From an uncultured Dongia sp. (GTDB taxonomy: Bacteria > Pseudomonadota > Alphaproteobacteria > Dongiales > Dongiaceae), in contig NZ_CAKZGO010000023.1 of the NCBI RefSeq assembly GCF_936916975.1, positions 124,001 to 188,000 of the forward strand: a stretch of 64,000 bases of DNA, read 5' to 3'. Shown here in pieces: positions 1,007-23,908 of the stretch (positions within the stretch are counted from its first letter, which is position 1; each line of letters starts with the position of its first letter). A program made the translations under genes and the position numbers. The notes under the pieces were generated by a model, which did not search any database, was not told the DNA's origin, and saw nothing but the letters and a program-made list of their open reading frames with translations.

Positions 1007-1067
1007 TGGTCGCTCGGTTCGAACAACGAGACGCCATCCATCAAGACTATCTTTAGAGAAGCGGAAT

Positions 1068-2780: not shown

Positions 2781-2835
2781 ATCGGCGCCCGTTAACCATT
2801 GGGCCTATGACTGATCGACAGTTGACGATTTTCGA

Positions 2836-2844
2836 TTGTAACAA
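2836..2844. promoter_or_regulatory. Possible GntR (FCD-type) operator upstream of its own gene
   Basis: A short palindrome, TTGT-A-ACAA, about 105 bases before the regulator start. It resembles the TNGT...ACNA half-sites bound by FadR/FCD GntR proteins. A related palindrome (ATTGTTGACAAT) lies before the downstream catabolic operon at 3824-3835. The pairing of the two sites is suggestive, but each site is short. Confidence 0.3.
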
Positions 2845-2948
2845 CCTCAGCTATGCTAGGGCCGAATCGGCTGGGTCGATTCTGTGGGATGCCTGGATGG
2901 GGATGCCGGCAAATGGCTTTACGTAACGGATCAGCGGCGTAGTCGTCG

Positions 2949-3835: not shown

Positions 3836-3902
3836 TTACAGAATGACCGACATGCTCGCGACCATAGAAGATCGATAAACCAGCGTGAAGTCAGGGGAAA
3901 TC

Positions 3903-6442: not shown

Positions 6443-6485
6443 CTATCCACAGTCACACGATGCCCAGCTCAATAAGGATGCACAT

Positions 6486-7568: not shown

Positions 7569-7569
7569 C

Positions 7570-8646: not shown

Positions 8647-9767
8647 AGATCAAGAATATCAAAGCGAGCCTGCATGGCTTCTCGATCGAGATTCCGCTAC
8701 TGCAGGGCAAGGTGCAGGGATATGGACGGGCGGAGCAGACTCATTTCGTGTTCTGCGAAGTGGAAACCGATGAGGGCATCGTTGGCTATGGCCTGACCGG
8801 GCATTTCCTGGCGCAATCCGTGATCGTGGCGCTGGAAAAGCATGTTCTTCCCGTGGTGCGCGACATGGATCCGCGGGACGTCGAACTCATCCACAAGACG
8901 GTCTGGGCGCGGCTCAACCCGCGGGCGATGACTGGGACCATTTCGATGGCGCTCTCCTGCCTGGATATCGCTTTATGGGACATCCAAGGCAAGCAGCAGG
9001 GTCGCTCGATTGCAGCACTCCTCGGCAACGCGCGTCAGGAAGTGCCGGCGTATATCACCTTCGGCTTTCCGCAATATGACCGCGACCAGTTGGTCGAGGC
9101 GGCGAAGCTGCATGTCGGCAACGGGTTCCGAGCTCTGAAATCGGTTGTGGCGGTCGACAAGGGTGGCTGGCGTGAAGATGCCAAGCGGACCCAGCTGATC
9201 CGCGAGGGGATCGGCCCGGATATCGATCTGATGATCGACGCCAACTATCTGTTCAACCCGGTCGAAGCGAAGATGCTGTGCCGCGAGATCGAAGACCTCA
9301 ATCTCACCTGGTTCGAGGAGCCGTTGCATCAGAACGACGCGCGCGCCATGGCCGATCTGCGTCAATCCACCAAGATCCCGCTGGCGGCCGGCCAGATGGA
9401 GGGGCATCGCTTCCGCTTGCGTGAGCTGGTTCACAATCAGGCCGTCGACATTCTGCAGCCGAACGTTACCTATTGCGGCGGCTACACGGAAGCGCGCAAG
9501 GCGGCGCATCTCGCACAGACCTATAACCTGCCGATCGCCAATGGCGGCGGCTGGCCGCTTTTTAACATGCATCTCATGGCCGGCATGATGAATGGCTGGT
9601 TCGTGGAATGGCATCTCGGCATGGTCGCTGTGGGGGAGACGCTGTTCGCCGATGCGCCGAAACCCGTGAACGGCATCCTGAAAATCCCCGAAAGGCCTGG
9701 CCTCGGCCTGACCTTGAATCGCGACGCGTGGCGCGACACCCGCGTCGATCCGGAGAAAGCCGCATGA
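8643..9767 (+). CDS. Mandelate racemase/muconate lactonizing family protein with altered active-site positions
   Basis: 374 residues with an enolase-superfamily capping domain and barrel. Metal-site residues are seen at D199 (LMIDANY) and E225 (WFEEPL). Several usual catalytic positions are changed. The Lys-x-Lys pair of acid-sugar dehydratases is K166-S-V. The third metal Glu is Gln251 in AAGQMEGH, with a Glu two residues on. The His expected near residue 302 falls in IANGGGWPLF, which has none. It may be a subfamily with a different chemistry. It overlaps the genes on both sides by ATGA, so it is made together with the tartrate dehydrogenase-like enzyme and tartrate dehydratase. The alignment is from memory. 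Confidence 0.85.
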   Translation: MKIKNIKASLHGFSIEIPLLQGKVQGYGRAEQTHFVFCEVETDEGIVGYGLTGHFLAQSVIVALEKHVLPVVRDMDPRDVELIHKTVWARLNPRAMTGTISMALSCLDIALWDIQGKQQGRSIAALLGNARQEVPAYITFGFPQYDRDQLVEAAKLHVGNGFRALKSVVAVDKGGWREDAKRTQLIREGIGPDIDLMIDANYLFNPVEAKMLCREIEDLNLTWFEEPLHQNDARAMADLRQSTKIPLAAGQMEGHRFRLRELVHNQAVDILQPNVTYCGGYTEARKAAHLAQTYNLPIANGGGWPLFNMHLMAGMMNGWFVEWHLGMVAVGETLFADAPKPVNGILKIPERPGLGLTLNRDAWRDTRVDPEKAA

Positions 9768-10933
9768 GAATCGTCCAGATCCGCGAAGCGGTCATGCCGA
9801 TCGCCTCCGATATCCGCAATGCCTACATCGATTTCAGCAAGATGACGGTCAGCGTCGTCGCAGTCGTGACCGATGTCATCCGCGACGGCAAGCCGGTGAT
9901 CGGCTACGGCTTTAATTCCAACGGTCGCTATGCCGCGAGCGGGTTGTTGCGGGAACGCTTCATGGCGCGGGTGCTGGAAGCAGCGCCGGCGGATACCGTC
10001 GATGAGACCGGCGAGAATCTCGACCCGGCCAAGATCTGGCGCCTCGCAATGACCAATGAAAAGCCGGGTGGCCATGGCGAAAGATCGGTCGCGGTCGGCG
10101 TGATCGACATGGCAGTGTGGGATGCGGTGGCCAAGATTGCCGGTCAGCCGCTCTATCGCCTGCTGGCTGATCGCTATGGCGACGGCAAGCCGGACAAGGA
10201 CGTCTTCGTCTATGCGGCGGGCGGATACTATTATCCAGGCAAGAATGTCTCCGCCTTGCAGGATGAGATGCGCAGTTATCTCGATCTCGGCTACAAGGTC
10301 GTCAAGATGAAGATCGGCGGCGCCGATCTCGACGATGATCTGCGGCGCATCGAAGCGGTGATCAAGGTGGTGGGAGAGGGCAAGCGCCTCGCGGTCGATG
10401 CCAACGGGCGGTTCGATCTGCCGACAGCGGTCAAGTACGCCAAGGCGCTGCAGCCCTACGATCTGTTCTGGTATGAGGAAGCTGGCGATCCGCTCGATTA
10501 TGCGCTGCAGGCAGAGCTCGCCCAGCACTACACAAATCCCATGGCGACCGGCGAGAATCTGTTCTCACACCAGGATGCGCGCAACTTGTTGCGCCATGGC
10601 GGCATGCGGCCGGATCGAGATTGGCTGCAATTCGACTGCGCGCTGTCCTATGGCTTGGTCGAATATATGCGGACTCTGGCATTGCTCGGCGATTACGGTT
10701 TCAGCTCACGCAATTGCGTACCTCATGGCGGACATCAACTGTCGCTCAACATCGCGGCGGGGTTGAAGCTCGGTGGCAACGAATCCTATCCCGGGCTTTT
10801 TGCGCCGTTTGGCGGTTTTGCCGATGGCATCCGTGTCGAAAACGGCCGGGTCGGCTTGCCGGATATCCCAGGTATCGGCTTCGAAGCGAAGGCGAATTTG
10901 ATCAACGGTATGCGCGCAGCGACATCGACCTAG
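9764..10933 (+). CDS. tarD: D(-)-tartrate dehydratase
   Basis: 389-residue enolase-superfamily enzyme that dehydrates D(-)-tartrate to oxaloacetate with Mg2+. The sequence closely follows the characterised Bradyrhizobium TarD as I remember it, including equal length, the start IRNAYIDFSKMT, GYGFNSNGRY, MTNEKPGGHGERS and ATGENLFSHQDARNLLRHGG. Active-site features are intact: K181-x-K183 (KMKIGG), metal ligands D212, E238 and E264, and H321 in the PHGGHQ motif. This is the best-defined function in the operon and anchors it to tartrate catabolism. It starts inside the previous stop (ATGA) and ends the operon, five bases from the convergent tctA stop. Confidence 0.92.
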   Translation: MRIVQIREAVMPIASDIRNAYIDFSKMTVSVVAVVTDVIRDGKPVIGYGFNSNGRYAASGLLRERFMARVLEAAPADTVDETGENLDPAKIWRLAMTNEKPGGHGERSVAVGVIDMAVWDAVAKIAGQPLYRLLADRYGDGKPDKDVFVYAAGGYYYPGKNVSALQDEMRSYLDLGYKVVKMKIGGADLDDDLRRIEAVIKVVGEGKRLAVDANGRFDLPTAVKYAKALQPYDLFWYEEAGDPLDYALQAELAQHYTNPMATGENLFSHQDARNLLRHGGMRPDRDWLQFDCALSYGLVEYMRTLALLGDYGFSSRNCVPHGGHQLSLNIAAGLKLGGNESYPGLFAPFGGFADGIRVENGRVGLPDIPGIGFEAKANLINGMRAATST

Positions 10934-10938
10934 TCGCG

Positions 10939-12432
10939 TCAGCTCGCGGCAGTCCTCTGACGATAGAGTTTCTTCAGCGCCGGCCAGATGGCGGAGCCGA
11001 AAATCATCAGTCCGGAAAGGACCAGGAGACCCAGCGAGATGGGATCCTGGAAGAAGATGATGGGGTCACCGCTCGAGACCATCAGGGACCGGCGGAAGTT
11101 GGCCTCGACCATGTAGCCCAGCATCAACCCCAGCACCAATGGCAGCATCGGGAATTTGAGCAGCTTCATGACATAGCCCAGGACACCGGCCATCAGCACA
11201 ATGATGAGGTCGAAGGCGCTGTTATCGATCGAGTAGACGCCGGAGAAGACGAGCGCATAAATGATGGCGAGGCGGTAGCGCTTGGGCCGGTTCACCAGCC
11301 AGATGCACGGCGTCATGATCAGCATGCCGATGGCGAGCTGGGCAATGTTCGCAACAAAGAGGCCGCCATACAGGCCATACATGACATCGGGGTTCTGCGT
11401 GAACAGCATCGGACCCGGTTGCATGCCATGGACCAGCAGCGCGCCCAACAGGACGGCTGTCGAGTTCGAGCCGGGAATACCGAAGGAAAGTGTGGGGATG
11501 AGCGCGGTACCGGCCACCGTGTTGTTGGCGGCTTCGGGCGCTGCGATGCCTTCGATCGAACCCTTGCCGAATTCCTCCGGATGACGGGACCAACGCTTGG
11601 CTTCGTTGTAGCTGAGGAAAGATGCAACTGCACCGCCACCGCCAGGGGTGATGCCTTCAAAGATACCCATGCCGGAGCCGACGCTGACCGGCAGCCACAG
11701 GCGCTTCCAGGATTTCAGCGATGGCAGTTTGATACGGGTGTCGCGGCCGGCGCGTTCCCTATCGACGAGGCTCACCTGAATGAGGAGTTCGCTCACCGCG
11801 AACACACCCATCATGATGAGAATAAAGTTGATGCCGCCATAAACTTCCGGAATGCCGAAGGTGAAGCGCGTAACGCCGGAGATCGGATCGGATCCAATGG
11901 TGGCGATCATCAGGCCGATGACGCCGGAGATGAGGCCTTTGACCAGCGAACCTTCGGTCAGGCTGGCGATGACGCTGAGGCTGAGGATACCCAGGGCGAA
12001 GTAAGCGGGTGGCGTGAACGCCAAGGCGAGTTTGGCCAGCGGCTCGGTCAGGACAACCAGGGCAATGACGCCGACCAGGCCGCCGACCACGCCGGCCATC
12101 AAGGAGATGCCAAGCGCTTCACCACCGCGGCCCTGCTGATGCAAGGCGTAGCCGTCGATCGTGGTCGCTGCTGCGGCATTGGTGCCGGGCGTGTTGATCA
12201 GGATGGCCGGGATAGACCCACCGTATTCCGCACCGACATAGACCGATGCCAACAAAATGATGGCGGTGGTGGGATCCATGGTGAGGGTGAAGGGTACCAG
12301 CAAGGCCATCGCGACCGAGGGCGAAATGCCCGGCATGGCACCGCCGACGATGCCATAAGCCACACCTGCAAAAGCAGCGAAGATGGCGGGCGTTGTGAAC
12401 AACACCCCCAAAGCAATATTGACGGCGTCCAT
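10939..12432 (-). CDS. tctA: Tripartite tricarboxylate transporter, large membrane subunit TctA
   Basis: 497 residues with about a dozen hydrophobic helices. The family's conserved GGAMPGISPSVAMALLVPFT segment lies near residue 30, and its repeat-half counterpart, GITPGGGGAVASFLSY, near 265. With TctB and the binding protein TctC it imports di- or tricarboxylates using an ion gradient. I set the start at the ATG at 12432 (MDAVNIALG); the frame runs open further upstream to 12633, but that would overlap tctB deeply. It is last in tctC-tctB-tctA and convergent with the tartrate operon. The regulator and dehydratase genes upstream suggest the imported acid is consumed by the PrpD-like enzymes. 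Confidence 0.93.
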   Translation of the reverse strand: MDAVNIALGVLFTTPAIFAAFAGVAYGIVGGAMPGISPSVAMALLVPFTLTMDPTTAIILLASVYVGAEYGGSIPAILINTPGTNAAAATTIDGYALHQQGRGGEALGISLMAGVVGGLVGVIALVVLTEPLAKLALAFTPPAYFALGILSLSVIASLTEGSLVKGLISGVIGLMIATIGSDPISGVTRFTFGIPEVYGGINFILIMMGVFAVSELLIQVSLVDRERAGRDTRIKLPSLKSWKRLWLPVSVGSGMGIFEGITPGGGGAVASFLSYNEAKRWSRHPEEFGKGSIEGIAAPEAANNTVAGTALIPTLSFGIPGSNSTAVLLGALLVHGMQPGPMLFTQNPDVMYGLYGGLFVANIAQLAIGMLIMTPCIWLVNRPKRYRLAIIYALVFSGVYSIDNSAFDLIIVLMAGVLGYVMKLLKFPMLPLVLGLMLGYMVEANFRRSLMVSSGDPIIFFQDPISLGLLVLSGLMIFGSAIWPALKKLYRQRTAAS

Positions 12433-12445
12433 GCTGATGCTTGCC

Positions 12446-13015
12446 TTAAAGGGTGGCTGAGGTGGCCGAATAGGCGGGGGAAATGCTCTGGGCCTGCGTG
12501 ACCTGATGCCACAATTTGGGCCAGAAACCCTGCGGTTGGTGGATGCCGAGGATCTCGACGAAAAGGACCCAGAAGAACACGGCGCCCAGCACGGCAAAGA
12601 GAATGACCGTGCGACGTGAGGCGCCGCCGGCAAACAGGGTTACCGCGGCCAGCAGATAGGCGACGCCGATGATGTAGCCGACCGTTTCGACCAAGATAAT
12701 GTAGCCGATTCCGATCAGCAGCAGGCCGAGCGCCCTGGCGTGTTTGTGGTAGTTGGAGACGGCAGGGGCATCATCGTCGGCATCGTCCTCTTCGACGGCC
12801 GCCGCTTCAGCTTTCTGCCGTCTCGCAAGAATTGTCTGCAGTACCAGCACGGCCGAGAGGATGAGCAGCAGGATGCCCAGCATTTTCGGCAGGGCCTCGG
12901 CGCCGACACCACCCTCGAGCAGGCTCTTTGGGATACTGTCGGCGCCCAGCCAATATGCCACCGCCAGGATAACCAGAACGATACCGGCGGCGATGTCTTT
13001 GTTAACGAACGTCAC
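12446..13015 (-). CDS. tctB: Tripartite tricarboxylate transporter, small membrane subunit TctB
   Basis: 189 residues with four predicted membrane helices, starting with one at about residues 7-25 and including a second at about 45-65. An acidic cytoplasmic loop (VEEDDADDDAP) lies near residue 78. Size, topology and place between tctC and tctA identify it as the small TctB subunit. The start is a GTG at 13015 with GGAG about six bases upstream. It follows tctC by 24 bases and precedes tctA by 13. Sequence conservation in this family is low, so the call rests partly on context. Confidence 0.87.
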   Translation of the reverse strand: MTFVNKDIAAGIVLVILAVAYWLGADSIPKSLLEGGVGAEALPKMLGILLLILSAVLVLQTILARRQKAEAAAVEEDDADDDAPAVSNYHKHARALGLLLIGIGYIILVETVGYIIGVAYLLAAVTLFAGGASRRTVILFAVLGAVFFWVLFVEILGIHQPQGFWPKLWHQVTQAQSISPAYSATSATL

Positions 13016-13039
13016 GCGATACTCCGCGAGGGTGAGCGA

Positions 13040-14008
13040 TTATTCGGCGGTGACGCCGAAATCTTCGTAGAACTTGGCCTGCGACTCAACGAACTTGCCG
13101 ACATAGCCGCGATACTCTTCCTGGCCCATGTAACCGGGGATGAGGTTGAGCTTTTCGTATTCCTTCTTGAAGTCCGGATCGGCCAGGACCTTCTGGGCGG
13201 CGGCTTCGATCAAGGCGACGGTTTCGGCGGGAATGCCCTTCGGGCCGGCGAGGCCGCGGAATTTGATGATGACGTCGCTGTCGACGCCGAGCTCAAGAGC
13301 GGTGGGGACGTCGGGCAAATTGGGCAGGCGTTCCGGCATATAGACACCGAGCGGCTTCAACTCGCCGGCCTCGATTTGTCCGGACAGTTCGGCGAGCTCA
13401 CCGACGCCGATATCGACCGTGCCATTAAGGACGCTGATCAGCAGGCCGGCGCCATCCTCGTGGGGAATGATCGCGACTTCGGCACCTTTGGCCTTCTTGA
13501 TCTTCTCGAGGATCTGGCGCTCCAACGAACCGGCGCTGGCCCCGCCCCATTTGGCCTTGCCTGGATTGGCGACGGCAAAGTCGACCGCGTCCTTGATCGT
13601 CTTGAAGGGGCTATCGGCCTTGGCGTAGAAGATTTCGGGGTCGTAGAAGAAATTGACGATGTAATCGATGTCCTTATAGGTCTTGTCCGGCTTGCTCAGC
13701 AGCGACGTCGTGATATGCGTCGGCGTGGTGGCGTAGAAAGCCGAACCATCCGCGGGCGCTACGGCGAGGTTGGCCATCGCCTTGGCACCTGAGCCACCGG
13801 CCCAATAGTCAACGATCACATTGGCGCCAAGATATTTGGCGAGCGGCGCGGAGATCGCGCGCAGGAAGAGATCGGAGCCGGAGCCCGGCTTGGAATGGGT
13901 ATAGATCGTCACGGTATCGACGGGATAGGCCTCTTGCGCCGCTGCCGGCGCAATGGCGAACAACGATAGCGCAACGGCGGACAAGGTGTTCCGAACAACC
14001 TGACGCAT
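13040..14008 (-). CDS. tctC: Tripartite tricarboxylate transporter substrate-binding protein TctC (Bug family)
   Basis: 322-residue periplasmic solute receptor. A signal peptide with cleavage after AAAQ covers about residues 1-25. The Bug-family YPVDTVTIYTHSKPGSGSDLFLRAIS opening is followed by NVIVDYWAGGSGAKAMANLA near residue 60, the loop that clamps a ligand carboxylate. GGGAGA is well placed before the ATG (GGGAGAGTCGTC then ATG). The region between this gene and the upstream GntR gene holds a 21-bp element (14044-14064) repeated at 20726-20746, so expression is probably controlled by that regulator. The ligand is likely a dicarboxylate, tricarboxylate or sulfonated acid. Confidence 0.92.
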   Translation of the reverse strand: MRQVVRNTLSAVALSLFAIAPAAAQEAYPVDTVTIYTHSKPGSGSDLFLRAISAPLAKYLGANVIVDYWAGGSGAKAMANLAVAPADGSAFYATTPTHITTSLLSKPDKTYKDIDYIVNFFYDPEIFYAKADSPFKTIKDAVDFAVANPGKAKWGGASAGSLERQILEKIKKAKGAEVAIIPHEDGAGLLISVLNGTVDIGVGELAELSGQIEAGELKPLGVYMPERLPNLPDVPTALELGVDSDVIIKFRGLAGPKGIPAETVALIEAAAQKVLADPDFKKEYEKLNLIPGYMGQEEYRGYVGKFVESQAKFYEDFGVTAE

Positions 14009-14043
14009 GACGACTCTCCCTGATCAGTGTGCCTTTGTGGCTT

Positions 14044-14064
14044 TAAGTCTTATATAAGATATAA
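14044..14064. promoter_or_regulatory. Repeated operator-like element, copy 1 (before tctC)
   Basis: A 21-bp element containing AAGTCTTATATAAGATATAA, identical to the copy at 20726-20746. It contains a 12-bp perfect palindrome (TCTTATATAAGA, 14048-14059) and an overlapping symmetric pair TTATAT-AAG-ATATAA. It lies 36 bases before the tctC start and just after the stop of the GntR (UTRA) gene. AT-rich symmetric sites like this are typical for HutC-type GntR repressors. Exact identity at two promoters over 6.6 kb apart makes chance unlikely. Confidence 0.72.
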
Positions 14065-14088
14065 GAGAGGAGGCGTTGAGTCAATCCG

Positions 14089-14847
14089 CTAGGTATGTTC
14101 CACAGCGTAGTGAAGAAAGCGGGAATCACAACGACTTACCCGCCATTCCACCCGCCGTTGATCGAGGCTGAGGGCTATGCGGTCGATTTCCAGCAGGGGA
14201 TGGCCAACCGGTACATCGAGCAATTTGGCATCACCCTTGTCGGCCGCGACAGCGCGCAGTTCTTCCACCACGCGCACGATCATCACGCGGTATTCCTGCT
14301 CCAGCAGGCTGTAGATCGATCCAGGGCGCAGCCGATCAAGGATGGCATCGAGATCCGGGAGGCCGCCAATATCGATCACGATGCGCTCGATGATGCAGGG
14401 GTGTCCGCCGAAGCTGCGTTGGCGCTCTGTCCGCAGGACGCGTGCGCCACTGGGCAGCGCCAGCCGTTCCCGCTCCGTGGCGGTGGCGGTGCCGGTCTTG
14501 ATCGAGATGAACTTGGTGGTGGGATGCCGATCGCTGCTCTGGTCGCTGACCAGGCGGATGAAGCGAAAGGGCTGGCTGCTGCTGCGATGGGTGGCGACGA
14601 AGGTGCCCTTGCCCTGCTGGCGCACGACCAGATTGTCCGCCGCCATTTCCTCGATCGCCTTGCGGACGGTGCCCTGGCTCACGTCATATTCTTCCGCGAG
14701 TTTCATCTCGCTGGGCAGCAATTGCGCCGGGCGCCATTCGCCGGTCAACACCCGCTGAATCAACAATTGCTTGATTTGGAGATAGAGTGGCTGGAACTCC
14801 GGCTTGGGGTCCATCGCCTGCTTTTCGAGCGTCACTCTCTTACCCAT
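14089..14847 (-). CDS. GntR-family regulator, HutC/UTRA type
   Basis: 252 residues. An N-terminal winged helix (about 15-80) has LAEEYDVSQGTVRKAIEEMAADNLVVRQQGKGTF-type recognition and wing elements. A UTRA ligand domain (about 95-245) follows, with GARVLRTERQRSFGGHPCIIE and HPLLEIDRIALSLDQRRVEW. It lies between the SDR/PrpD genes and tctC on the same strand and most likely represses both sets through the two identical 21-bp elements. An in-frame ATG at 14814 is an alternative start; neither has a strong ribosome site. An ATCACA-N9-TGTGAT inverted pair at 14898-14918 lies in its own upstream gap and could be another control site. Confidence 0.9.
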   Translation of the reverse strand: MGKRVTLEKQAMDPKPEFQPLYLQIKQLLIQRVLTGEWRPAQLLPSEMKLAEEYDVSQGTVRKAIEEMAADNLVVRQQGKGTFVATHRSSSQPFRFIRLVSDQSSDRHPTTKFISIKTGTATATERERLALPSGARVLRTERQRSFGGHPCIIERIVIDIGGLPDLDAILDRLRPGSIYSLLEQEYRVMIVRVVEELRAVAADKGDAKLLDVPVGHPLLEIDRIALSLDQRRVEWRVSRCDSRFLHYAVEHT

Positions 14848-14942
14848 CCTGCAAGAACCCCGTTCCTACCCGTCGTTGCGCGATTTTCGCCGACTATATC
14901 ACAGAGATGGGTTGTGATTCGCGCTGATTTCCATCGCCGGGA

Positions 14943-15692
14943 CTACGGCATCAAGACCCCACCATTTACATGCATCGATTGTCCGGTGATGTAGCGCGCC
15001 TGCGGGCCGCAGAGATAGCGGACCATGGCAGCAACTTCATCAGGACGGCCAAAACGATCCATCAGGCGGACCCGGTCCTTGTGGTGTTGTGGGTTGACGG
15101 CGCTGTGCTGGCCGCGTTCCGTTTCGATCAGGCCGGGCACCACGCAATTGGCCGTGATGTGGTCGGCGGCGAGGTCGTGGGCGAGCGCTTTCGTAAAGCC
15201 GGCGAGCGCCGCCTTGCCGGTGACGACGTGAATGCGTTGCTTGGCGCCGCTATGGCCGGTAAGGCCGCCGATATTGATGATCGTCCCGCCACCACGTGCG
15301 CGCATGGACGGAACGCAGGCCTTGCTGCACAGAAAGGCGCCGTCCAGCATGATGGACAGCACGTCCTGCCACTCGGCGAGCGATACATTGTCGAGGACGC
15401 CTTCCTTCCGGATGGCGGCATTGTTCACCAGGATGTCGATGCCGCCGAAAGCCGTCAGCCCCATGGCGACCATGCGTTCGACCGCGGCCTCATCAGTGAC
15501 GTCTGCTTGGGCAATCATGGCCTTGCCGCCGGCTGCCTCAATCAAGTCGACCGTCTGCTGGGCAAAATCCAGCGAACTGCGGGTGTTGACAATGATCCTG
15601 GCGCCGGCTTCCGCCAACGCAAGAGCGATGGCGCGACCGATATTGCGGGCCGCCCCCGTGACCAGGGCAACTTTGCCAGTGAGCTCAGCCAT
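14943..15692 (-). CDS. Short-chain dehydrogenase-fold protein without catalytic Ser/Tyr
   Basis: 249-residue Rossmann-fold SDR. The cofactor loop VTGAARNIGRA (about residues 11-21), the NNAA motif near 90 and the C-terminal YITGQSMHVNGG are normal. The catalytic residues are not. The Ser position reads IGGLTG, and the usual YxxxK segment reads IHVVTGK, leaving Lys160 but a Val where Tyr belongs and His one place earlier. I recall SDR subfamilies with HVVT-x-K segments, so this is probably a natural variant, possibly using His or doing non-redox chemistry. ATG 15692 overlaps the preceding PrpD-like stop by eight bases, showing translational coupling with that gene. Confidence 0.86.
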   Translation of the reverse strand: MAELTGKVALVTGAARNIGRAIALALAEAGARIIVNTRSSLDFAQQTVDLIEAAGGKAMIAQADVTDEAAVERMVAMGLTAFGGIDILVNNAAIRKEGVLDNVSLAEWQDVLSIMLDGAFLCSKACVPSMRARGGGTIINIGGLTGHSGAKQRIHVVTGKAALAGFTKALAHDLAADHITANCVVPGLIETERGQHSAVNPQHHKDRVRLMDRFGRPDEVAAMVRYLCGPQARYITGQSMHVNGGVLMP

Positions 15693-17076
15693 GCGTCTTG
15701 CCACCCGCGACGGCGGCAAATCCAGCGAGGCTGGGTTGCTGCGGCAGTTGATTGGCATAGGCGAGGAGCGCTTCGCCGCGCGCCGCAGACCAGCCGCCGA
15801 ACGCCGTGTTCTTCAGGAACTTCTGCTCCAGTTCGGCGCGCGATAGCGGATCGCGGCTGCCACCCCGCAGATGCGGCTGATGCAGCTCGATCACCTGGCC
15901 GTCAGTCAATTTGGCGCGCAGGTGGCCGGTGTAATTTTTCGGATACTCGTTCTTGGGATCGACCTCGAAGCCAATCTTGGCCGCGAGCTTGAGGACCGCC
16001 GGCTCCTTGATTTTCGTCTCGGTAAATTGGGCAAGACCGGCATTGCCATCCATGAAGGCTACCGCCATGCAATAGGGTGTGCTGAACTTGGCAGCATAGG
16101 CGGTTGGCGGCGTTTGCTTGAGCGCCAACGGTTCCCATAGACGATGAACAGTGCCTTCGCCGACAGCGCAGGTGATCTCGGCAATGGCGTCAGCCTGGAT
16201 GCCCTGCTTGCGCAAGGCCAGGGCGCAATCGATATAGGGCTGCACCATCGTGCCGCAGGCATAAGGCTTGAAGGCCAGTTGGCTGCCAACCCACTTCTTG
16301 CTGAGACCATCCAGCAGCAGCGAGAAGTCCGGCTTGATCGACGGCGCAAAGGCGGAGAAGAAGCCGTGCGTACCTTCAAACACCGTCACCGGGCCGGTGA
16401 AGCCCGCGCCACCGAGGGCTGCCGCACGCAGGCCGGATTGCGCCGCCCAGCCGGCATGCAGACGCTTGGTCGACGAGCCATCGGCCAGATACTCGATGAT
16501 GCCGGAGGCAAGGCTACCGGCGACGCCGAGGCTGTTGACGATCGCGCGACCTTTAAGTCCGGTAACGATTGCCGCCGCGACGGTCGCGGCGAATGTGCCG
16601 AGGACGGCGGTCGGGTGAAAACCCGCCTGATGCACCGATTTGTCGGAGACGAGGCCGAGCCGACACATGATCTCGATGCCGGCGGCGACCGCCAGCATCG
16701 TGCGTGCGCCATCGAGTTTGTGCTTTTCAGCCAGTGCCAGAACGGCCGGCACCACCACCGCGCCGGAATGAACCGGACAGCCTTCGAAGGTGTTGTCGAA
16801 ATCTTCGCCATGCGCGGCGGTGCCGTTGATAAGGGCGGCGGCCACCGGCGACAGCCGTGCCGCATGCGCGATCACCGTGCAATCACCCTGGTCCTCGAAG
16901 GCAGCCAGGGTCGACAGGGTGTAATCCGCGTCGCGCGCGGCAACGCAAAGGCCCAGAACGTCGACGACCGTGGCGAGTGCCGCACGCTCCATGGCCGGAT
17001 CAAGCTGGTCCGGCGTGAGTTGCTCGACCCAATCGGCAAGATGCTCCGAAACGGATTTTGTCACGATGCGGTTCAT
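15685..17076 (-). CDS. MmgE/PrpD family protein (copy nearest the SDR)
   Basis: 463 residues. The acidic signature reads AAHGEDFDNTFEG near residue 92, followed by HSGAVVVPAVLALAE, FHPTAVLGTFAATVAAA near 152 and AFKPYACGTMVQPYIDC near 268. The CAVGEG and YCMAVAFMDG segments are also typical. It shares the GEDFD form of the motif and the C-terminal LRGGSRDPLSRAELEQKF with the copy at 18515-19909 and is closer to it than to its immediate neighbour. Its start overlaps the previous gene's stop by ATGA. Substrate unknown; the family acts on methylcitrate-, aconitate- or isomer-type acids. Confidence 0.88.
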   Translation of the reverse strand: MNRIVTKSVSEHLADWVEQLTPDQLDPAMERAALATVVDVLGLCVAARDADYTLSTLAAFEDQGDCTVIAHAARLSPVAAALINGTAAHGEDFDNTFEGCPVHSGAVVVPAVLALAEKHKLDGARTMLAVAAGIEIMCRLGLVSDKSVHQAGFHPTAVLGTFAATVAAAIVTGLKGRAIVNSLGVAGSLASGIIEYLADGSSTKRLHAGWAAQSGLRAAALGGAGFTGPVTVFEGTHGFFSAFAPSIKPDFSLLLDGLSKKWVGSQLAFKPYACGTMVQPYIDCALALRKQGIQADAIAEITCAVGEGTVHRLWEPLALKQTPPTAYAAKFSTPYCMAVAFMDGNAGLAQFTETKIKEPAVLKLAAKIGFEVDPKNEYPKNYTGHLRAKLTDGQVIELHQPHLRGGSRDPLSRAELEQKFLKNTAFGGWSAARGEALLAYANQLPQQPSLAGFAAVAGGKTHG

Positions 17077-18476
17077 GGCTGGATCAACGTTGCAAGGGTG
17101 GCGGCATCGGCGAGCTTTTCGACACCGAAGGCGGCATCGATCACCGCCTGTCGGCGCTTGCCATCCAGCAAACCGTCGGTGCAGGCGGCAACTTTGCTTT
17201 CGAGATCCTTGTCGGTCATCGGATTGGCGGGACCGCCGCGATAGCGTTCATCCGCCCATTCGACCAGTTTCGTCCCGTCCTTGAGTGTCATCTCAATGCG
17301 CGAGCGGATGATGTCCCAGCCCTTGGCCTCGATCTCCGGGTCAAGCTGCGTCGTGATGCGCTTCTGCATGTCCTGCGTTGCGGCCGACTGGATGAACTCA
17401 TTGGTGAATTCCTTGCGGCCCGCCTGGCGCCGCAGGACAATCATCGCCAGCAGGCCGGCCATGCTGAACTTGGCCTGCAGATGGTTCTGGGCGATGGGAT
17501 ATCGGATCGGGTTGAGAATGTTCGACCCGGCATAGAAATCGATGCGCTCGACCTTGGTGGGATCGACATTATGCGTCGTCACCAGCTTGAGCATCGCGTC
17601 CATCGACTGGTGCGTCACGATTCCGCTGGGATATGGCTTGATGCTGATGCCGGGTTCGACCATCGACCAAGTCTTGCCGAAGCCTTGCGCCAGTTTCGCT
17701 TCAGTGGCGCCGCCGCTCTGCACCATCATGAAGCCCCAACGCCCGTCGAGCGCTTCCGGATCGGCAGTAAACCCGCGAGCGGCGAGCAAGGCCGCGGTGA
17801 CCCCGTTTTCCGAAGCGCGGCCAACATGCAGCGGTTTGGTCATGGTGCCGAAATTGCAGCGGATGCCCGAGGCAAAGCTCGCAGCGATTCCCATGGCGTG
17901 GGCCAGTTTGACACCGCTCATACCGAGCAGTTTGGCCGTCGTGGCACAGGCGCCAAACGTGCCGACTGTACCGCTGGAATGCAGGCCGCGCTTGTAATGG
18001 TCCGGCAGCATCCACTCGGAGATCTTCGATTCAACTTCGACGCCAGTGGCAAAGGCGTTCACAAAATCCCGTCCTGAGACGCCACCCAGCTTCTGACCCA
18101 TCACCATCGCGGCGGTCAAGGGTGGTACGGTGGGGTGGGTCAGCAGGCCATAGACATGGGCCGGATCGTGCGACACCTGGGTATCGTCCCAGTCATGGGC
18201 GTGACCGGCCGTGCCGAGAACACGGGCAGCGAGGGCAGCTGGAATCTTGAGGTCACCGCCACCGAGCAGCAGGGCGTCCGGCCGACCGCCAACTTCACGA
18301 GCATCCTCAATGAGGACCTGCACCGATTCCTCATCGCTGCCGGCGATGTAAAGCGCCAAGCCGTCGAGAATGCAGCGCCTGGCGATCCGCACGGCTTCGT
18401 CGGGCAGACGGTCGAAGCTGCTGGCTTCAATGAAGGCGCATGCCGCGCGAGTGACATTGGTGGGTGTGTAGGTCAT
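17073..18476 (-). CDS. MmgE/PrpD family protein (middle copy)
   Basis: 467 residues. It has a different signature from its flanking paralogues: AGHAHDWDDTQVSHDP near residue 93, then HPTVPPLTAAMVMGQ, a LHSSGTVGTFGACATTAKLLG segment, GTMTKPLHVGRASENG near 205 and SIKPYPSGIVTHQ near 275. This form matches the copy at 3903-5309 (GTMTKPFHAGRSSESG, SIKPHPSGSLTH), so the window holds two PrpD subtypes. A two-subtype operon could mean successive dehydration steps or a pair acting on stereoisomers. It is transcribed with the genes on both sides, overlapping the next by four bases. Confidence 0.88.
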   Translation of the reverse strand: MTYTPTNVTRAACAFIEASSFDRLPDEAVRIARRCILDGLALYIAGSDEESVQVLIEDAREVGGRPDALLLGGGDLKIPAALAARVLGTAGHAHDWDDTQVSHDPAHVYGLLTHPTVPPLTAAMVMGQKLGGVSGRDFVNAFATGVEVESKISEWMLPDHYKRGLHSSGTVGTFGACATTAKLLGMSGVKLAHAMGIAASFASGIRCNFGTMTKPLHVGRASENGVTAALLAARGFTADPEALDGRWGFMMVQSGGATEAKLAQGFGKTWSMVEPGISIKPYPSGIVTHQSMDAMLKLVTTHNVDPTKVERIDFYAGSNILNPIRYPIAQNHLQAKFSMAGLLAMIVLRRQAGRKEFTNEFIQSAATQDMQKRITTQLDPEIEAKGWDIIRSRIEMTLKDGTKLVEWADERYRGGPANPMTDKDLESKVAACTDGLLDGKRRQAVIDAAFGVEKLADAATLATLIQP

Positions 18477-18514
18477 GGCGTTATCTGTGTTCCCTGTTCA
18501 TCAAGCGGCAGTCG

Positions 18515-19909
18515 TCAAATACGGTAAGCGCCGAAACTTGAAAGGTCCGGCTGGCTGGCAATTGTCAGGCAGAAATCCTGCAATCTGTCGGCATCACTTT
18601 CCCGCCAGCCACCATAGACGGCATTGCGGTGGAATTTGCGCACGAGTTCGTCGCGGCTCAACGGTTCGCGCTTGCCGCCGCGCATATGCGGCTGGCGCAG
18701 TTCGATGATCCGGCCGTCTCGCAGGGTTGCGCGGATATGGCCGGAGTAGTTGACCGGATATTCATTGTCGGGATCTATGACATAGCGAATTCGTTTGGCG
18801 AGACTGAGGATACGCGGATCCTTGGCCTTCTCGTCGGTGAACTGCTCGAGGCCGGCCGCCTGATCGAAGAAGCCGACAGCCATGCAAAACGGCATGCTGA
18901 ACTTCGCGGCATAACCGGACGGCGGCAGATGCTTGCCGGCAAGCGGCTCCCATAGGCGATCAACCAATCCCTCACCAGTTTCGCACAGCACGTCCACGAT
19001 GTCGTCGGCAGAAATACCCTGCTGCGCCAGCCTGATCATGCAATCGATGAAAGGGTGGATCATGGTGCCGCAGGCATATGGTTTGAAGGCGATATCTCCC
19101 ATCAGCCAGTTATTCCCCAGGCCCTCGGTCAGATACGAGAAGCGCGGTGTGGCGCTGGGGGCAAAGGCGCGGAAAAACCCGTGGGGGCCTTCCAGCACAG
19201 TGCGCGGGCCGTTATAGCCAGCACGTGCCATCGTCGCTGCCCGCAGGCCCGATTGTGCCGCCCAGCCGGGATGAAGCCGTTTGGTCCAGGAGCCATCGGT
19301 GAGATATTCGAGGATGCCGGAGGAGAGGGAGCCGGCGATGCCGAGTGCGTTGACCATCTGCGCACGGTCAAGATCCAGCGTGATGCCAGCGCCCACCGTG
19401 GCGCCGATCGCGCCGATGACACCGACCGGGTGAAAGCACGCCTTGTGGATGGCACCGGGTGCCACATGGTTCATCCGGCAGATCATTTCCAACCCGAAAA
19501 TAATACCGCGCAGTGCCTCCGCGCCGCTGCGGCCATAGCGTTCGGCCGCTGCCAGCACAGCCGGAATCACCATGGCGCCGACGCGAATCGGCGCCCCTTC
19601 CAGCGTATCGTCAAAATCCTCGCCATGGGTGCCGGTACCGTTGATGAGCGCCGCATCGGCCGCCCGCAACGGCCGCGCATGGCCGATGGCGGTACAGTTT
19701 CCCTCGTCATCGCAGCTGCGCAGCAGAGCCTGCATGTAGTCGGTCTGGCGCGCCGACAGGCAGTTGCCGGCCATATCGAGGAGGTCGTTGACGGCCACGT
19801 CCTTGGCCTTCTGCGGGAGGCCCGCGAAGGGGAGGGCGAGCAGGCCGTCTACCAGCGCTTCAGTGAGGCTCGGTTCCTTGGTGACGGCGACGTTGGCTAT
19901 CACGGACAT
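18515..19909 (-). CDS. MmgE/PrpD family protein (first in the minus-strand operon)
   Basis: 464 residues with GTHGEDFDDTLEGAPIRVGAMVIPA near residue 92, FHPVGVIGAIGATVGAG near 150, TDGSWTKRLHPGWAAQSGLRAA near 205 and AFKPYACGTMIHPFIDC near 270. It resembles the 15685-17076 copy throughout, including the HMRGGKREPLSRDELVRKFH C-terminus, and the two probably arose by duplication. It begins three bases after the comA-like stop with no clear ribosome site, so it probably depends on coupled translation. The family catalyses dehydration or decarboxylation of polycarboxylates in the cytosol; the exact substrate is unknown. Confidence 0.88.
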   Translation of the reverse strand: MSVIANVAVTKEPSLTEALVDGLLALPFAGLPQKAKDVAVNDLLDMAGNCLSARQTDYMQALLRSCDDEGNCTAIGHARPLRAADAALINGTGTHGEDFDDTLEGAPIRVGAMVIPAVLAAAERYGRSGAEALRGIIFGLEMICRMNHVAPGAIHKACFHPVGVIGAIGATVGAGITLDLDRAQMVNALGIAGSLSSGILEYLTDGSWTKRLHPGWAAQSGLRAATMARAGYNGPRTVLEGPHGFFRAFAPSATPRFSYLTEGLGNNWLMGDIAFKPYACGTMIHPFIDCMIRLAQQGISADDIVDVLCETGEGLVDRLWEPLAGKHLPPSGYAAKFSMPFCMAVGFFDQAAGLEQFTDEKAKDPRILSLAKRIRYVIDPDNEYPVNYSGHIRATLRDGRIIELRQPHMRGGKREPLSRDELVRKFHRNAVYGGWRESDADRLQDFCLTIASQPDLSSFGAYRI

Positions 19910-19912
19910 GAT

Positions 19913-20692
19913 CTATAACGCCCCCAACAGGCCGAAGACGCCGCGTTTGCGGATACCGCGCCGCAATAGCTCAAGATCCAGCACCTGGTCGTCATCGACA
20001 TCAAGATTGACCGCGTTGCCAAAGGTCGACACGTACCAGAGCTGGGCTTTGGCATCCTTGGCTTGAAAGATCAGGTTTTCGATGCCGAAGCGCGCAACGA
20101 TCGCCAACACAAAATCGCCCTTGAACGAAGCGACATCCTCACTGATGCCCTCGGCCTGTATCAGCACTTTCCAGGCGCCGGCGGCTTGATAGGTTTCGAT
20201 CTGCTTGAGGACGTAAGAAAGGCTACGGGTCCAGTCCTCCTGGCCCTTTTGTCCGGCTTCCGCGACGACATCGAGACCTTGGGCCGCGGCCATCTTGATC
20301 AGTGCCGATTTGTCGGCCAGTGACATGGTGACCTGGGCGCTCGAAACCTCGACGGCGTCAGCGCCGAGTTCCCGCACGGCAGCATAAAACTCCGCTGAAA
20401 CCCCTTGCGCGAAGGCTGCCTCGGTGGCGTCACCGGCCAGGAAGACCTTGATTCCGGCATCGTGATAGGCAGTGATCTTGCGGCGGAGCAGCTCAGCGGG
20501 CTGTAGACGCCAGGCGCCAATGCCCATTTTCGCGACATCGACGTAGCTGGCAGCGGTCTCCAGCAAATCTGCCTGGGCGCGCGTCCCCAGCCCGCGATCC
20601 GCCATGATGGTCAGGCCTGTTTCCCGCGGTTTGTCCGCGCGGGGCGCCACGCGGATGCAGGCAAAAGCCTTGTCTTGCAACAAAGAATCCAT
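19913..20692 (-). CDS. ComA-family (phosphosulfolactate synthase-like) protein
   Basis: 259 residues matching the ComA TIM-barrel family, whose founder joins phosphoenolpyruvate and sulfite to make phosphosulfolactate. The opening RADKPRETGLTIMADRG, the YVDVAKMGIGAW strand near residue 50, GADAVEVSSAQ near 112, DVVAEAGQKG and the ending FGNAVNLDVDDDQVLDLELLRRGIR follow the family order. Key positions differ from the consensus I remember: GGT is AGD near residue 80, and the E-A-R-E-S motif is Q-A-E-G-I near 186. It may therefore use another acceptor. It leads the PrpD/SDR operon, is divergent from an ocd-family gene and shares the 20726-20746 operator-like element with it. Confidence 0.78.
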   Translation of the reverse strand: MDSLLQDKAFACIRVAPRADKPRETGLTIMADRGLGTRAQADLLETAASYVDVAKMGIGAWRLQPAELLRRKITAYHDAGIKVFLAGDATEAAFAQGVSAEFYAAVRELGADAVEVSSAQVTMSLADKSALIKMAAAQGLDVVAEAGQKGQEDWTRSLSYVLKQIETYQAAGAWKVLIQAEGISEDVASFKGDFVLAIVARFGIENLIFQAKDAKAQLWYVSTFGNAVNLDVDDDQVLDLELLRRGIRKRGVFGLLGAL

Positions 20693-20725
20693 CAGATGAA
20701 CTCGGTCAGGGGCGGCAACGTTGCC

Positions 20726-20746
20726 TAAGTCTTATATAAGATATAA
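20726..20746. promoter_or_regulatory. Repeated operator-like element, copy 2 (between comA-like and ocd-family genes)
   Basis: Identical over 21 bp to the copy at 14044-14064, including the TCTTATATAAGA palindrome (20730-20741). It sits in the 96-base divergent gap, 34 bases from the comA-like start and about 43 from the ocd-family start, so one bound regulator could control both directions. The linked UTRA-type GntR protein is the obvious candidate. Confidence 0.72.
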
Positions 20747-20788
20747 AACTTAACCCCCTGTCAACGCTTGGCCTCGGTGGAGCCCCAA

Positions 20789-21865
20789 TTGACCATACTC
20801 CTCAGCAATGATGACGCGCAGACGCTGCTCACCATGTCCGACTGCGTGTCGGTCCTGCAGCAAACCTATGCCGCGGCCCATGCCGGAACAGCCATCAACG
20901 GCCGGAGGTCGGACATGGTGGGACCAACCAGCCGTGCTGACAGATCCTATGTTCTCAAGATGATGGGCGCCGTTCAGCCAGATCTGAAGGTCGGTGCCGT
21001 TCGCATTAATTCGGACCTTTTCAGCTGGGTGTCGGAAGGCGCGCAACGCCGCCGCGTCAAGGTGCCGGCGGCACCGGGTGATCGCTGGGTTGGGTTGGTC
21101 CTGCTGTTCAGCACCGAGACGGGCGAACCGCTAGCGATTTTCCCGGACGGCGTGGTGCAGCGCATGCGCGTCGGGGCCACCAGTGGCATCGCGGTCCAAC
21201 TGCTGGCGCGCCCGGAGGCCGATGTGCTTGCCATTCTCGGCACCGGCTGGCAAGCAGAGGCGCAGGTGATGGCGGCGGCGGCCGTTCGGCCGTTGCGTGA
21301 AATTCGTTGCTTCAGCCCCAATGCGGAACGACGTGCGGCCTTTGCTGCCAGGATGCAGGCGTTGCTCGATATCGCCACGATTGCCTGCGAAAGCGCGGTG
21401 GACGCCGTTCGGGGAGCAGATATCGTGCTCTGCGCTACCAACAGCAGTTCACATGTTCTCGATGCGACCATGCTGACGCCCGGCATGCATATCGGCACCA
21501 TTCGCGACCGCGAGATTGCACCGGCGGCGATTGCCCGGGCGGATCTGGTGGTGGTGCATGACCGCGACAACCTCACCGGGCAGCATGTCGAAATCGCCCA
21601 CGGGGCGGTGTTCGAGGAGAAGCGCAAGGAACTTGGTCAGGATGCGCGCACGAGCGCGCTTGTCTCAGCGCCCTCGCTGGCGGAATTGGTGGGAGGGTCT
21701 GTCGTGGGACGGCAGCGGCCCGAAGACATCACGTGCTTCCTCAACTACCATGGCATTGGCCTGCAATTCGCCGCACTCGGCGCTTTGCTGCATGCCAAGG
21801 CCAAGGAGCAGGGCCGAGGGCATCATCTCCCGACCGAATGGTTTACCGAGGACGTCCATTCATAG
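20789..21865 (+). CDS. Ornithine cyclodeaminase / mu-crystallin family protein
   Basis: 358-residue NAD(P)-binding protein of the ornithine cyclodeaminase superfamily, which includes lysine and ornithine cyclodeaminases, imine (ketimine) reductases and alanine dehydrogenase. Features are KMMGAVQPDLKVGAVRIN near residue 55, FPDGVVQRMRVGATSGIAVQLLARPEA near 120, the Rossmann loop LGTGWQAEAQ near 150 and CATNSSSHVLD near 215. I prefer the TTG at 20789 because GGTGGAG lies seven bases before it; a TTG at 20768 is the furthest open start. It diverges from the comA-like operon across the shared 21-bp operator. The reaction is not predictable. Confidence 0.85.
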   Translation: MTILLSNDDAQTLLTMSDCVSVLQQTYAAAHAGTAINGRRSDMVGPTSRADRSYVLKMMGAVQPDLKVGAVRINSDLFSWVSEGAQRRRVKVPAAPGDRWVGLVLLFSTETGEPLAIFPDGVVQRMRVGATSGIAVQLLARPEADVLAILGTGWQAEAQVMAAAAVRPLREIRCFSPNAERRAAFAARMQALLDIATIACESAVDAVRGADIVLCATNSSSHVLDATMLTPGMHIGTIRDREIAPAAIARADLVVVHDRDNLTGQHVEIAHGAVFEEKRKELGQDARTSALVSAPSLAELVGGSVVGRQRPEDITCFLNYHGIGLQFAALGALLHAKAKEQGRGHHLPTEWFTEDVHS

Positions 21866-23143: not shown

Positions 23144-23908
23144 TCAGTGAAAGGCATCCCAGATGGGCCGCCACAGTAGCGAGATGCCGCCGATAAAGAC
23201 GACAATTTCCATGAGCATCTTGTGCAGACGCAAAGATGTGCGGTGCAGAATCCATCGCGCGAGATAATTGCCGGGGATCGTACACAGACCGATCAAGCCG
23301 CCCGCCAACAGCAGAGTGAGCGGCAAATCGCCAATCCCCTTGAAGACCACGGCCTTGGTCAGGTTGACGGTAATGGAGATGGCGGCATCGGTTGCGAGGA
23401 AAGAGGGCCCGATTAGACCCGCGCCGAGTAGCACCGGTATCATCAGGATGCCGGCACCTGGCGTGGTTCCCGTGACAACGCCAAAACACCCGCCGGCCAC
23501 AGCCAACCCCGCACGGCCAAGCTGCATCTGACGCCGCGCCAGAAAACGGCCGACGGGGATCGAGATGATCAGAAAACCACCCAAGACGAGGGCAATCATG
23601 TCGTGCTGCAGGCTGAGGTAGATCGACGTGCCCACCAACACCGCGGGGATCAACGTGATGATGAGACCACCCACCAGTTTGCGATCGAGGGCGCGATGAT
23701 AGAGCCAGAAGCGATGCAGATTGGTGATCAGCATGGCGAAGCTGAGTGTGGGCACGACGTTCTGCACGCCCAGCAGGGGTGCCAGGATGGGCGGCAGCAA
23801 CAACCCGCCGCCGAACCCGGTCATCCCACTGCAGGTACCGGCGACGAATGCCGCCAGTCCCACAAGAAGGAGGTCCCAGGTGGAGACATGTGCGGCCACC
23901 AAATCCAT
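23144..23908 (-). CDS. TauE/SafE family membrane transporter (sulfite/sulfonate exporter-like)
   Basis: 254-residue membrane protein with about eight helices. The family's GTCSGMTGFGGGLLLPPILAPLLG motif is near residue 23, with a related repeat, GVVTGTTPGAGILMIPVLLGAGL, near 148. Characterised relatives export sulfite, sulfoacetate or similar organosulfur anions, but many members are uncharacterised. It lies about 2.4 kb from a ComA-like gene whose classic substrate is sulfite, a proximity discussed in the findings. Its upstream gap (23909-24271) is shared divergently with the serine dehydratase gene. Confidence 0.87.
   Translation of the reverse strand: MDLVAAHVSTWDLLLVGLAAFVAGTCSGMTGFGGGLLLPPILAPLLGVQNVVPTLSFAMLITNLHRFWLYHRALDRKLVGGLIITLIPAVLVGTSIYLSLQHDMIALVLGGFLIISIPVGRFLARRQMQLGRAGLAVAGGCFGVVTGTTPGAGILMIPVLLGAGLIGPSFLATDAAISITVNLTKAVVFKGIGDLPLTLLLAGGLIGLCTIPGNYLARWILHRTSLRLHKMLMEIVVFIGGISLLWRPIWDAFH

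Follow-up and report, generated by a model that had tools for sequence, protein, structure and literature searches.

Conserved linkage of a divergent ComA-family protein with MmgE/PrpD proteins in Dongia and other proteobacteria: a candidate unit for uptake and breakdown of a substituted acid

We analyzed a 64,000-nucleotide stretch of an uncultured Dongia sp. genome (contig NZ_CAKZGO010000023.1, positions 124,001 to 188,000; the window, below), in which a block at positions 10939 to 21865 encodes a tripartite tricarboxylate transporter (TctABC), a GntR regulator, an SDR-fold protein, three MmgE/PrpD proteins, a ComA-family protein, and an OCD-family protein. These genes belong to a real and conserved catabolic unit that is built from known families, and the linked set is carried by some soil, groundwater, and marine bacteria. 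An original prediction from the sequence alone had proposed an unassigned acid pathway here, polycarboxylate or possibly sulfonate; this description holds, in that the genes are co-inherited and we found no published account of the ComA-PrpD pair in the CC-licensed PubMed Central literature searched. Tentatively, we suggest that the locus imports and beta-eliminates a substituted, probably sulfonated, acid. Every gene named in that prediction was recovered with Pfam (TctA, 487.5 bits; TctB, 64; TctC, 111.9; SDR, 179; ComA, 208; OCD_Mu_crystall, 122; MmgE_PrpD_N in the three PrpD proteins, 181, 166, and 185), and the transporter set is complete.

RESULTS

Co-inheritance of ComA, PrpD, Tct, and OCD genes

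ComA-family proteins passed the cut-off in 3/398 genomes of a phylum sample and in 11/397 genomes of the order of genome G572, and three of the 385 genomes in a class sample contained the subfamily found in the window: G000 (the window's own genome), G006, and G319. A three-sequence alignment, run against one genome for every species in a set of 84,980, returned 22 loci of this subfamily from Alpha- and Betaproteobacteria (59 to 75% identity); 20 come from metagenome-assembled genomes (MAGs) and the other two from Ancylobacter koreensis Jip08 and Bosea sp. 117. One MAG record (L023) is labeled Bordetella parapertussis, a label that may be misassigned. Counts over 23 loci combine these 22 with the window; several loci are cut by contig ends, and therefore absences at them are weak.

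Within about 10 kb of the subfamily ComA gene, PrpD occurs at 18/23 loci, a Tct component at 15/23, and OCD at 13/23; the OCD gene of locus L028, missed in the open reading frame (ORF) pass, was found by tblastn. The chance expectation for PrpD per 22-kb stretch is 0.7% (from 27 copies in 21 genomes) or 2.4% (from the 6 copies in the window's genome). Distance matrices for ComA and its PrpD neighbor are correlated (r = 0.83 over 12 loci, with nine PrpD1 and three PrpD3-like marine partners; 0 of 20,000 permutations as high), despite variable gene order and orientation among those loci. The stretch from TctA to ComA has the same gene order in a second Dongia species (L012/L014), and ComA, PrpD1, PrpD2, PrpD3, and OCD recur jointly with a Tct system in a genome of another family (L013), so the block is not a product of chance. 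PrpD1 at 70% identity or more was present only in G000, G006, and G319 among the 385 class-sample genomes, where the next matches reach at most 58%.

The prediction of co-inheritance thus stood up to the comparison of synteny, with the qualification that the block divides in two. Module A (ComA, PrpD1, and OCD) and module B (PrpD2, PrpD3, and SDR) are separable, because each occurs without the other. Ancylobacter koreensis (L029) and Bosea sp. 117 (L031) carry a minimal cassette, TctB-TctA-OCD / ComA-PrpD1-GntR-TctC, with no second PrpD within 10 kb. Conversely, G008, from the window's family, has Tct-PrpD2-PrpD3-SDR followed by ABC-FadR-PrpD4-Iso_dh, with no PrpD1 among its four PrpDs, no subfamily ComA, and no OCD in the stretch read. 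PrpD3-like and SDR genes also occur together, without a subfamily ComA nearby, in four genomes (L103, L105, L106, and L107; TctA adjoining in three), which represent two genera since L103, L105, and L107 share one. Both modules are present in the window, in L014 (minus OCD), and in L015 (minus SDR). We therefore rejected a single, indivisible pathway spanning all 10.9 kb.

A ComA subfamily without the RESG loop

The original prediction had noted that ComA-family proteins normally join sulfite and phosphoenolpyruvate (PEP), a role that is not supported for the window protein: it scores 155.5 bits against TIGR03849, under the curated equivalog cut-off of 280, and lacks the E(A/G)RESG loop. This loop, a hallmark that comes from the present analysis, is found in 6 of 44 rows of an alignment of ComA-family proteins and is missing in 38. 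(L069, a 7-kb contig on which ComA is broken in two, was excluded, and the genomes of L009, L010, and L040 are represented by L070, L071, and L059.) The six rows are the two solved enzymes (1qwg and 1u83), Xanthobacter, Nocardioides, L058, and L071, the latter two with coenzyme M-type neighbors; we take the first three to be M. jannaschii ComA, B. subtilis YitD, and Xanthobacter XcbB1. All 23 members of the window subfamily lack RESG and have Q(G/A)(E/D)G(I/V/T)SE instead. A further difference from phosphosulfolactate synthase is the change of FEAP to FQAK. The subfamily forms a single clade (support, 100/99) separate from the RESG clade (96/94), in a tree for which the program warned of long branches elsewhere.

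Fold and barrel are shared with phosphosulfolactate synthase. The AlphaFold2 (AF2) model of the window protein (pLDDT, 86.8) has 1qwg as its nearest structure (TM, 0.83), a TIM barrel, and residues D20, K43, E79, E103, E133, K137, E237, and R240 (M. jannaschii numbering) are conserved in 23/23 sequences. The neighborhoods differ: coenzyme M genes accompany phosphosulfolactate synthase, whereas PrpD, Tct, and OCD accompany the window protein. Lyases of what we take to be the XcbC/XcbD type are present at all four coenzyme M-type loci (L038, L039, L058, and L071), none of which has PrpD, and at 0 of the 22 subfamily loci searched.

Given the lost loop, the score below cut-off, the separate clade, and a neighborhood without coenzyme M lyases, the name phosphosulfolactate synthase is probably wrong for this subfamily. 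Our reading of these alignments is that it retains the core chemistry and has changed its substrate. That the protein is nevertheless a true synthase, adding sulfite to PEP for a coenzyme or osmolyte beside unrelated neighbors, is favored by the match to 1qwg, the retained barrel residues, and Pfam, which names the whole family (2R)-phospho-3-sulfolactate synthase; against the features just listed and the strong linkage to PrpD, we regard it as very improbable.

PrpD proteins and catalytic position 99

The window encodes four PrpD proteins, three in the block and PrpD4 upstream of it, and both MmgE/PrpD Pfam domains are over cut-off in all four. Reading dehydration or decarboxylation from these proteins, as the original prediction did, is too narrow, because the available text of PMC12290011 places isomerases in the family as well and calls the family poorly characterized. 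Against the 2-methylcitrate dehydratase equivalog (cut-off, 950 bits), PrpD1 and PrpD3 score 44 bits and PrpD2 has no match. Known substrates of the family have a C4 1,4-dicarboxylate core in common (PMC12290011, same excerpt); a C3 sulfonate such as sulfolactate would match the shape of that core with the sulfonate at one end.

Numbered after the iminodisuccinate epimerase residues in the PMC12290011 excerpt, PrpD2 and PrpD4 retain His99 and Tyr145, PrpD3 retains His99 and has His at 145, and PrpD1 reads Arg and His at these two positions in all nine full-length orthologs (the L027 protein, a fragment, is outside this count). Over seven active-site positions compared, PrpD2 and PrpD4 keep seven, PrpD3 six, and PrpD1 five. 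The closest PrpDs from genomes without the subfamily ComA have His99 in 9/9 cases, and so do all 15 usable further controls, with less certain alignment for L081 and L086; the 15 leave out L073, L077, L079, L088, and L089, along with L074, L085, and L092 from the G006 cassette. PrpD partners of a second, Bradyrhizobium-type ComA have Lys at 99 and Arg at 145 (2/2 loci). That a permanent cation has taken the place of the catalytic base in two types of ComA-linked PrpD suggests, at the level of sequence, a substrate with an extra anion. The best PDB match is iminodisuccinate epimerase for PrpD2 and PrpD3 and B. subtilis IRG1 for PrpD1. The predicted PrpD1 model has a pLDDT of 79, falling below 50 in loop 98 to 108, so the placement of Arg99 was not judged from it.

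SDR and OCD proteins

The SDR was correctly predicted to be catalytically altered. The window protein and six homologs (7/7) have Gly for the catalytic Ser and Val for the Tyr, departing from the classical Ser-Tyr-Lys triad, and retain the Lys and the TGxxxNIG motif. The OCD protein carries its GxGxQA-like NAD motif as GTGWQA, and its loop after HIGTI is shorter than in 6t3e, likewise in 10 of 13 OCDs aligned. Its Pfam domain is over cut-off, and all 13 NCBIfam models that it matched score under their own cut-offs.

Other ComA types and neighborhood variants

The ComA-PrpD link extends past the window subfamily, yet it is not universal, because second and third ComA types pair with PrpD and a fourth does not. 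The second type, on Bradyrhizobium plasmids and in G902, stands in the order PrpD-PrpF-ComA (L037 and L068). Up to about 12 kb away are an SsuA/NMT1-type ABC transporter and a flavoprotein, the latter annotated as TcuA in Bradyrhizobium and as FAD_binding_2 in G902. The third type adjoins PrpD in G572 and G984 and not in G008, where it neighbors an 85% homolog of the window's D-tartrate dehydratase-like protein. No PrpD is near the fourth, Chelativorans type in eight loci (L036 and L061 to L067).

Several further features of these neighborhoods were recorded. The PrpD-PrpF-ComA triplet of L037 and L068 sits on a peanut Bradyrhizobium plasmid in one case and in another genome in the other. Several fourth-type loci lie near a GntR-type regulator, and the Chelativorans gene lies near amidohydrolases, SDRs, and a dipeptide-type ABC transporter. 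Locus L032 packs three different ComA-family genes into 20 kb, alongside two PrpD genes and one PEP-mutase-family lyase; its genome, G1110, carries a second subfamily locus, L022. Genes for a GMC oxidoreductase, a sortase, a cbb3 oxidase, a sulfatase, and thiamine pyrophosphate enzymes occur in one or a few loci and were not used.

Layout of the locus and its neighbors

Apart from the divergent OCD gene, all genes of the block are on the minus strand (Table 1). The 75-bp gap between ComA and OCD is presumed to be a shared promoter region, and the HutC-type GntR protein is likely the regulator of the locus.

TABLE 1 Features of the window (positions from the start of the 64,000-nucleotide stretch)
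Feature	Position	Strand	Basis or comment
ABC binding protein (start cut by window edge), permease, and FadR-type GntR, ahead of PrpD4; module C	2..3728	+	
PrpD4, His99 and Tyr145 kept; module C	3885..5309	+	Pfam, alignment
Two Iso_dh-family dehydrogenases; module C	6486..8646	+	Second passes tartrate dehydrogenase cut-off
Two enolase-superfamily proteins; module C	8643..10933	+	Second close to 2dw7/Bll6730
TctA, large membrane subunit	10939..12432	-	Pfam; likely start 12432
TctB, small membrane subunit	12446..13015	-	Pfam
TctC, solute-binding protein	13040..14008	-	Pfam
HutC-type GntR regulator (GntR and UTRA)	14089..14847	-	Pfam
SDR-fold protein lacking the catalytic Ser and Tyr; module B	14943..15692	-	Pfam, alignment; likely start 15692
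PrpD3, His99 kept, Tyr145 to His; module B	15685..17076	-	Pfam, alignment
PrpD2, His99 and Tyr145 kept; module B	17073..18476	-	Pfam, alignment
PrpD1, His99 to Arg and Tyr145 to His (iminodisuccinate epimerase positions); module A	18515..19909	-	Pfam, alignment
ComA-fold protein, RESG-less subfamily; module A	19913..20692	-	Pfam, TIGR03849, alignment, AF2 model
Gap between divergent ComA and OCD genes, 75 bp	20693..20767		Coordinates
OCD/mu-crystallin-family protein, divergent from ComA; module A	20768..21865	+	Pfam, alignment
TauE/SafE-family exporter, outside conserved unit	23144..23908	-	Next to ComA in one sister species

The plus-strand Iso_dh and enolase-superfamily genes look like tartrate metabolism and were treated separately as module C. 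The second Iso_dh protein scores 508 bits against a tartrate dehydrogenase cut-off of 470, and the second enolase-superfamily protein matches Bll6730/2dw7, which we take to be D-tartrate dehydratase, at an E value of 1e-186. With an AbrB-family membrane protein, these two gene pairs make up a cluster at 5339-10933 that resembles tartrate use. In G008, too, PrpD4 lies near module B. On the other side, a short HSP70-family ORF (21872-23128; 418 amino acids) lies between the OCD and TauE genes, 15 bp from TauE and on the same strand, and a minus-strand ORF at 27971-28984 (337 amino acids) appears by eye to encode a second OCD-family-like protein, about 6 kb past the first.

DISCUSSION

In the tentative route proposed above, the imported acid would have a three- or four-carbon backbone that bears one more anionic group, most probably a sulfonate. 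The ComA-fold enzyme would apply the carboxylate-activated enol chemistry of phosphosulfolactate synthase to a nonphosphorylated substrate in the eliminating direction, breaking a C-S (or other C-heteroatom) bond beta to the carboxylate and releasing sulfite and an unsaturated or keto acid. PrpD1 would isomerize the substrate or a neighbor of it, and its Arg99 may hold the extra anion at the site of the catalytic His of other members, while the OCD protein could use NAD(P) to convert an intermediate of the imine, amino, or keto kind. Module B, with its altered SDR, might act on C4 dicarboxylates that are related but hydroxylated or epimeric, and it may supply substrates to the tartrate-type enzymes of module C. 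In its boldest form, the proposal is that the RESG-less proteins form a new class of C-S beta-lyases, which desulfonate a free (nonphosphorylated) sulfonated acid by ComA chemistry in reverse, together with recruited PrpD isomerases in which, along at least two ComA-linked lines, an Arg or Lys that binds the sulfonate took the place of the catalytic His, and so constitute a new desulfonation route in Alpha- and Betaproteobacteria; this we consider unlikely.

A sulfonate substrate is favored by the enrichment of carriers in Xsc (sulfoacetaldehyde acetyltransferase), an enzyme of organosulfonate dissimilation. Xsc is over cut-off in 9/14 alphaproteobacterial carriers versus 36/324 other class-sample genomes (Fisher test, 7e-6) and in 7/8 betaproteobacterial carriers versus 2/33 other order-sample genomes (1e-5; 7/8 versus 2/24 without order genomes below 2.8 Mb), in comparisons that use different genome draws, are uncorrected for phylogeny, and assume that the ComA subfamily is missing from every baseline genome except G000, G006, and G319. 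The window's genome carries Xsc (968 bits) on a different contig. Published excerpts describe a Tct-type transporter for sulfolactate (PMC5812351) and a TctC for a thio-dicarboxylate (PMC8102459). In the sister species (L014), TauE stands in line just upstream of ComA. These points partly support the sulfonate half of the original prediction, which had also drawn on the TauE/SafE gene; that gene does lie 1.3 kb past the block, and it was rejected as a core part of the unit.

Several observations weigh against the sulfonate reading. Elimination rather than addition is a direction that we infer. Beyond its lack of correction for phylogeny, the Xsc signal comes from a gene that is not in the window, that the Ancylobacter koreensis genome lacks, and that two same-genus genomes without the subfamily ComA also carry. 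TauE occurs in only 2/23 loci. For ComE, the sulfopyruvate decarboxylase beta subunit, nothing above about 35 bits was found in the window's genome (best match, 35 bits; cut-off, 221.5), the sister species, or Ancylobacter, and only 2 of 13 genomes tested pass the cut-off; ComDE adjoins Tct in L013 and L015, both below cut-off, has no counterpart in the window's genome, and was likewise rejected as a core part. Five of the 23 loci have no PrpD, two of them on contigs shorter than 4 kb. Moreover, every PrpD read retains His99 at 8 of the 18 subfamily loci with PrpD (betaproteobacterial L020, L022, L023, L026, and L032; marine L030, L033, and L034), as do the ComA-partner PrpDs of G572 and G984 in a distant alignment, so in these sequences Arg99 is a trait of one PrpD branch and not a requirement for partnership with ComA.

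Neighboring genes also speak for another class of substrate. At 5/9 betaproteobacterial loci, an AcnA-type aconitase either adjoins ComA or is separated from it by a single gene, which points to a tricarboxylate; the aconitase gene is complete in L020 and L022 and truncated by the end of the contig in L019, L025, and L026, and some of these loci also have OCD and PrpD. PrpF, which adjoins the second ComA type in L037 and L068, and PrpB/PEP-mutase-family lyases in L032, L033, and L034 point the same way, as do the tartrate-type enzymes adjoining the block in the window. The same architecture could thus serve an unsulfonated tricarboxylate or hydroxy-dicarboxylate of the aconitate, citramalate, tartrate, or methylcitrate type, with the ComA-fold protein as a hydratase/dehydratase or isomerase on an aconitate-like double bond. 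This possibility ranks close behind the sulfonate reading; it leaves the Arg of PrpD1 and the Xsc enrichment unexplained, and the Ancylobacter and Bosea loci have no aconitase, PrpF, or PrpB-like lyase. Less probable than either of these two readings is a route for degrading N-substituted aspartates of an iminodisuccinate- or opine-like type, in which PrpD1 would isomerize the substrate, the ComA-fold protein would act as a C-N lyase yielding a fumarate-like product, and OCD would oxidize or reduce an imine. Such a route would suit the imine and amino acid chemistry in OCD family names, the frequency of OCD across the 23 loci, the PDB matches of PrpD2 and PrpD3, and the amidase genes in L021, L022, L024, and Bosea L031. 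However, neither epimerase base (His99 or Tyr145) is present in PrpD1, whose best PDB match is IRG1, no known C-N lyase family was found in the cassette with Pfam, and the OCDs of L019, L020, and L022 are only 35 to 36% identical to that of the window.

Known sulfolactate routes run through SuyAB, ComDE with Xsc, or CuyA, and 0 of the 10 cassette genes match these families by Pfam. The transporter is of the same class as the SlcHFG sulfolactate tripartite transporter of Roseovarius and Chromohalobacter (PMC5812351, in excerpt), and a sulfonate is a possible ligand here. Among MmgE/PrpD relatives, iminodisuccinate epimerase and (S)-(R)-methylsuccinate isomerase share the family of the window proteins, and PrpD1 differs at positions 99 (Arg for His) and 145 (His for Tyr). 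The Pseudomonas itaconate/methylsuccinate cluster PA0878-0886 likewise combines a PrpD-family isomerase with a transporter, and its 127-amino-acid ring-cleaving-dioxygenase-like protein parallels a 128-amino-acid glyoxalase-fold protein beside PrpD in L017, L027, and L028; the accessible portions of PMC9875883 and PMC12290011 name no ComA or OCD gene in that cluster. At those three loci, the adjoining PrpD (457 amino acids) is a divergent one, and the layout is like that of the PA0880-PA0881 pair; in L013 a 132-amino-acid glyoxalase-fold protein is some genes off from PrpD. Unlike PA0878-0886, neither the window block nor the minimal cassette contains a gene of a CoA route. Elsewhere, a CoA-transferase III gene is present in marine locus L033, and a CoA transferase and a CoA-ester lyase are near the Bradyrhizobium cluster.

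RESG-less relatives on Bradyrhizobium and Chelativorans plasmids bear the product name phosphosulfolactate synthase, a name that suggests that these organisms make sulfonates or coenzyme M, which they may not. Because the cassette is so compact in Bosea sp. 117 and Ancylobacter koreensis, its substrate could be found by routine screens for growth and binding. Should the sulfonate reading prove true, the sulfur cycle would gain a desulfonating enzyme fold; if it is false, the cassette would still point to new functions in the ComA and MmgE/PrpD families.

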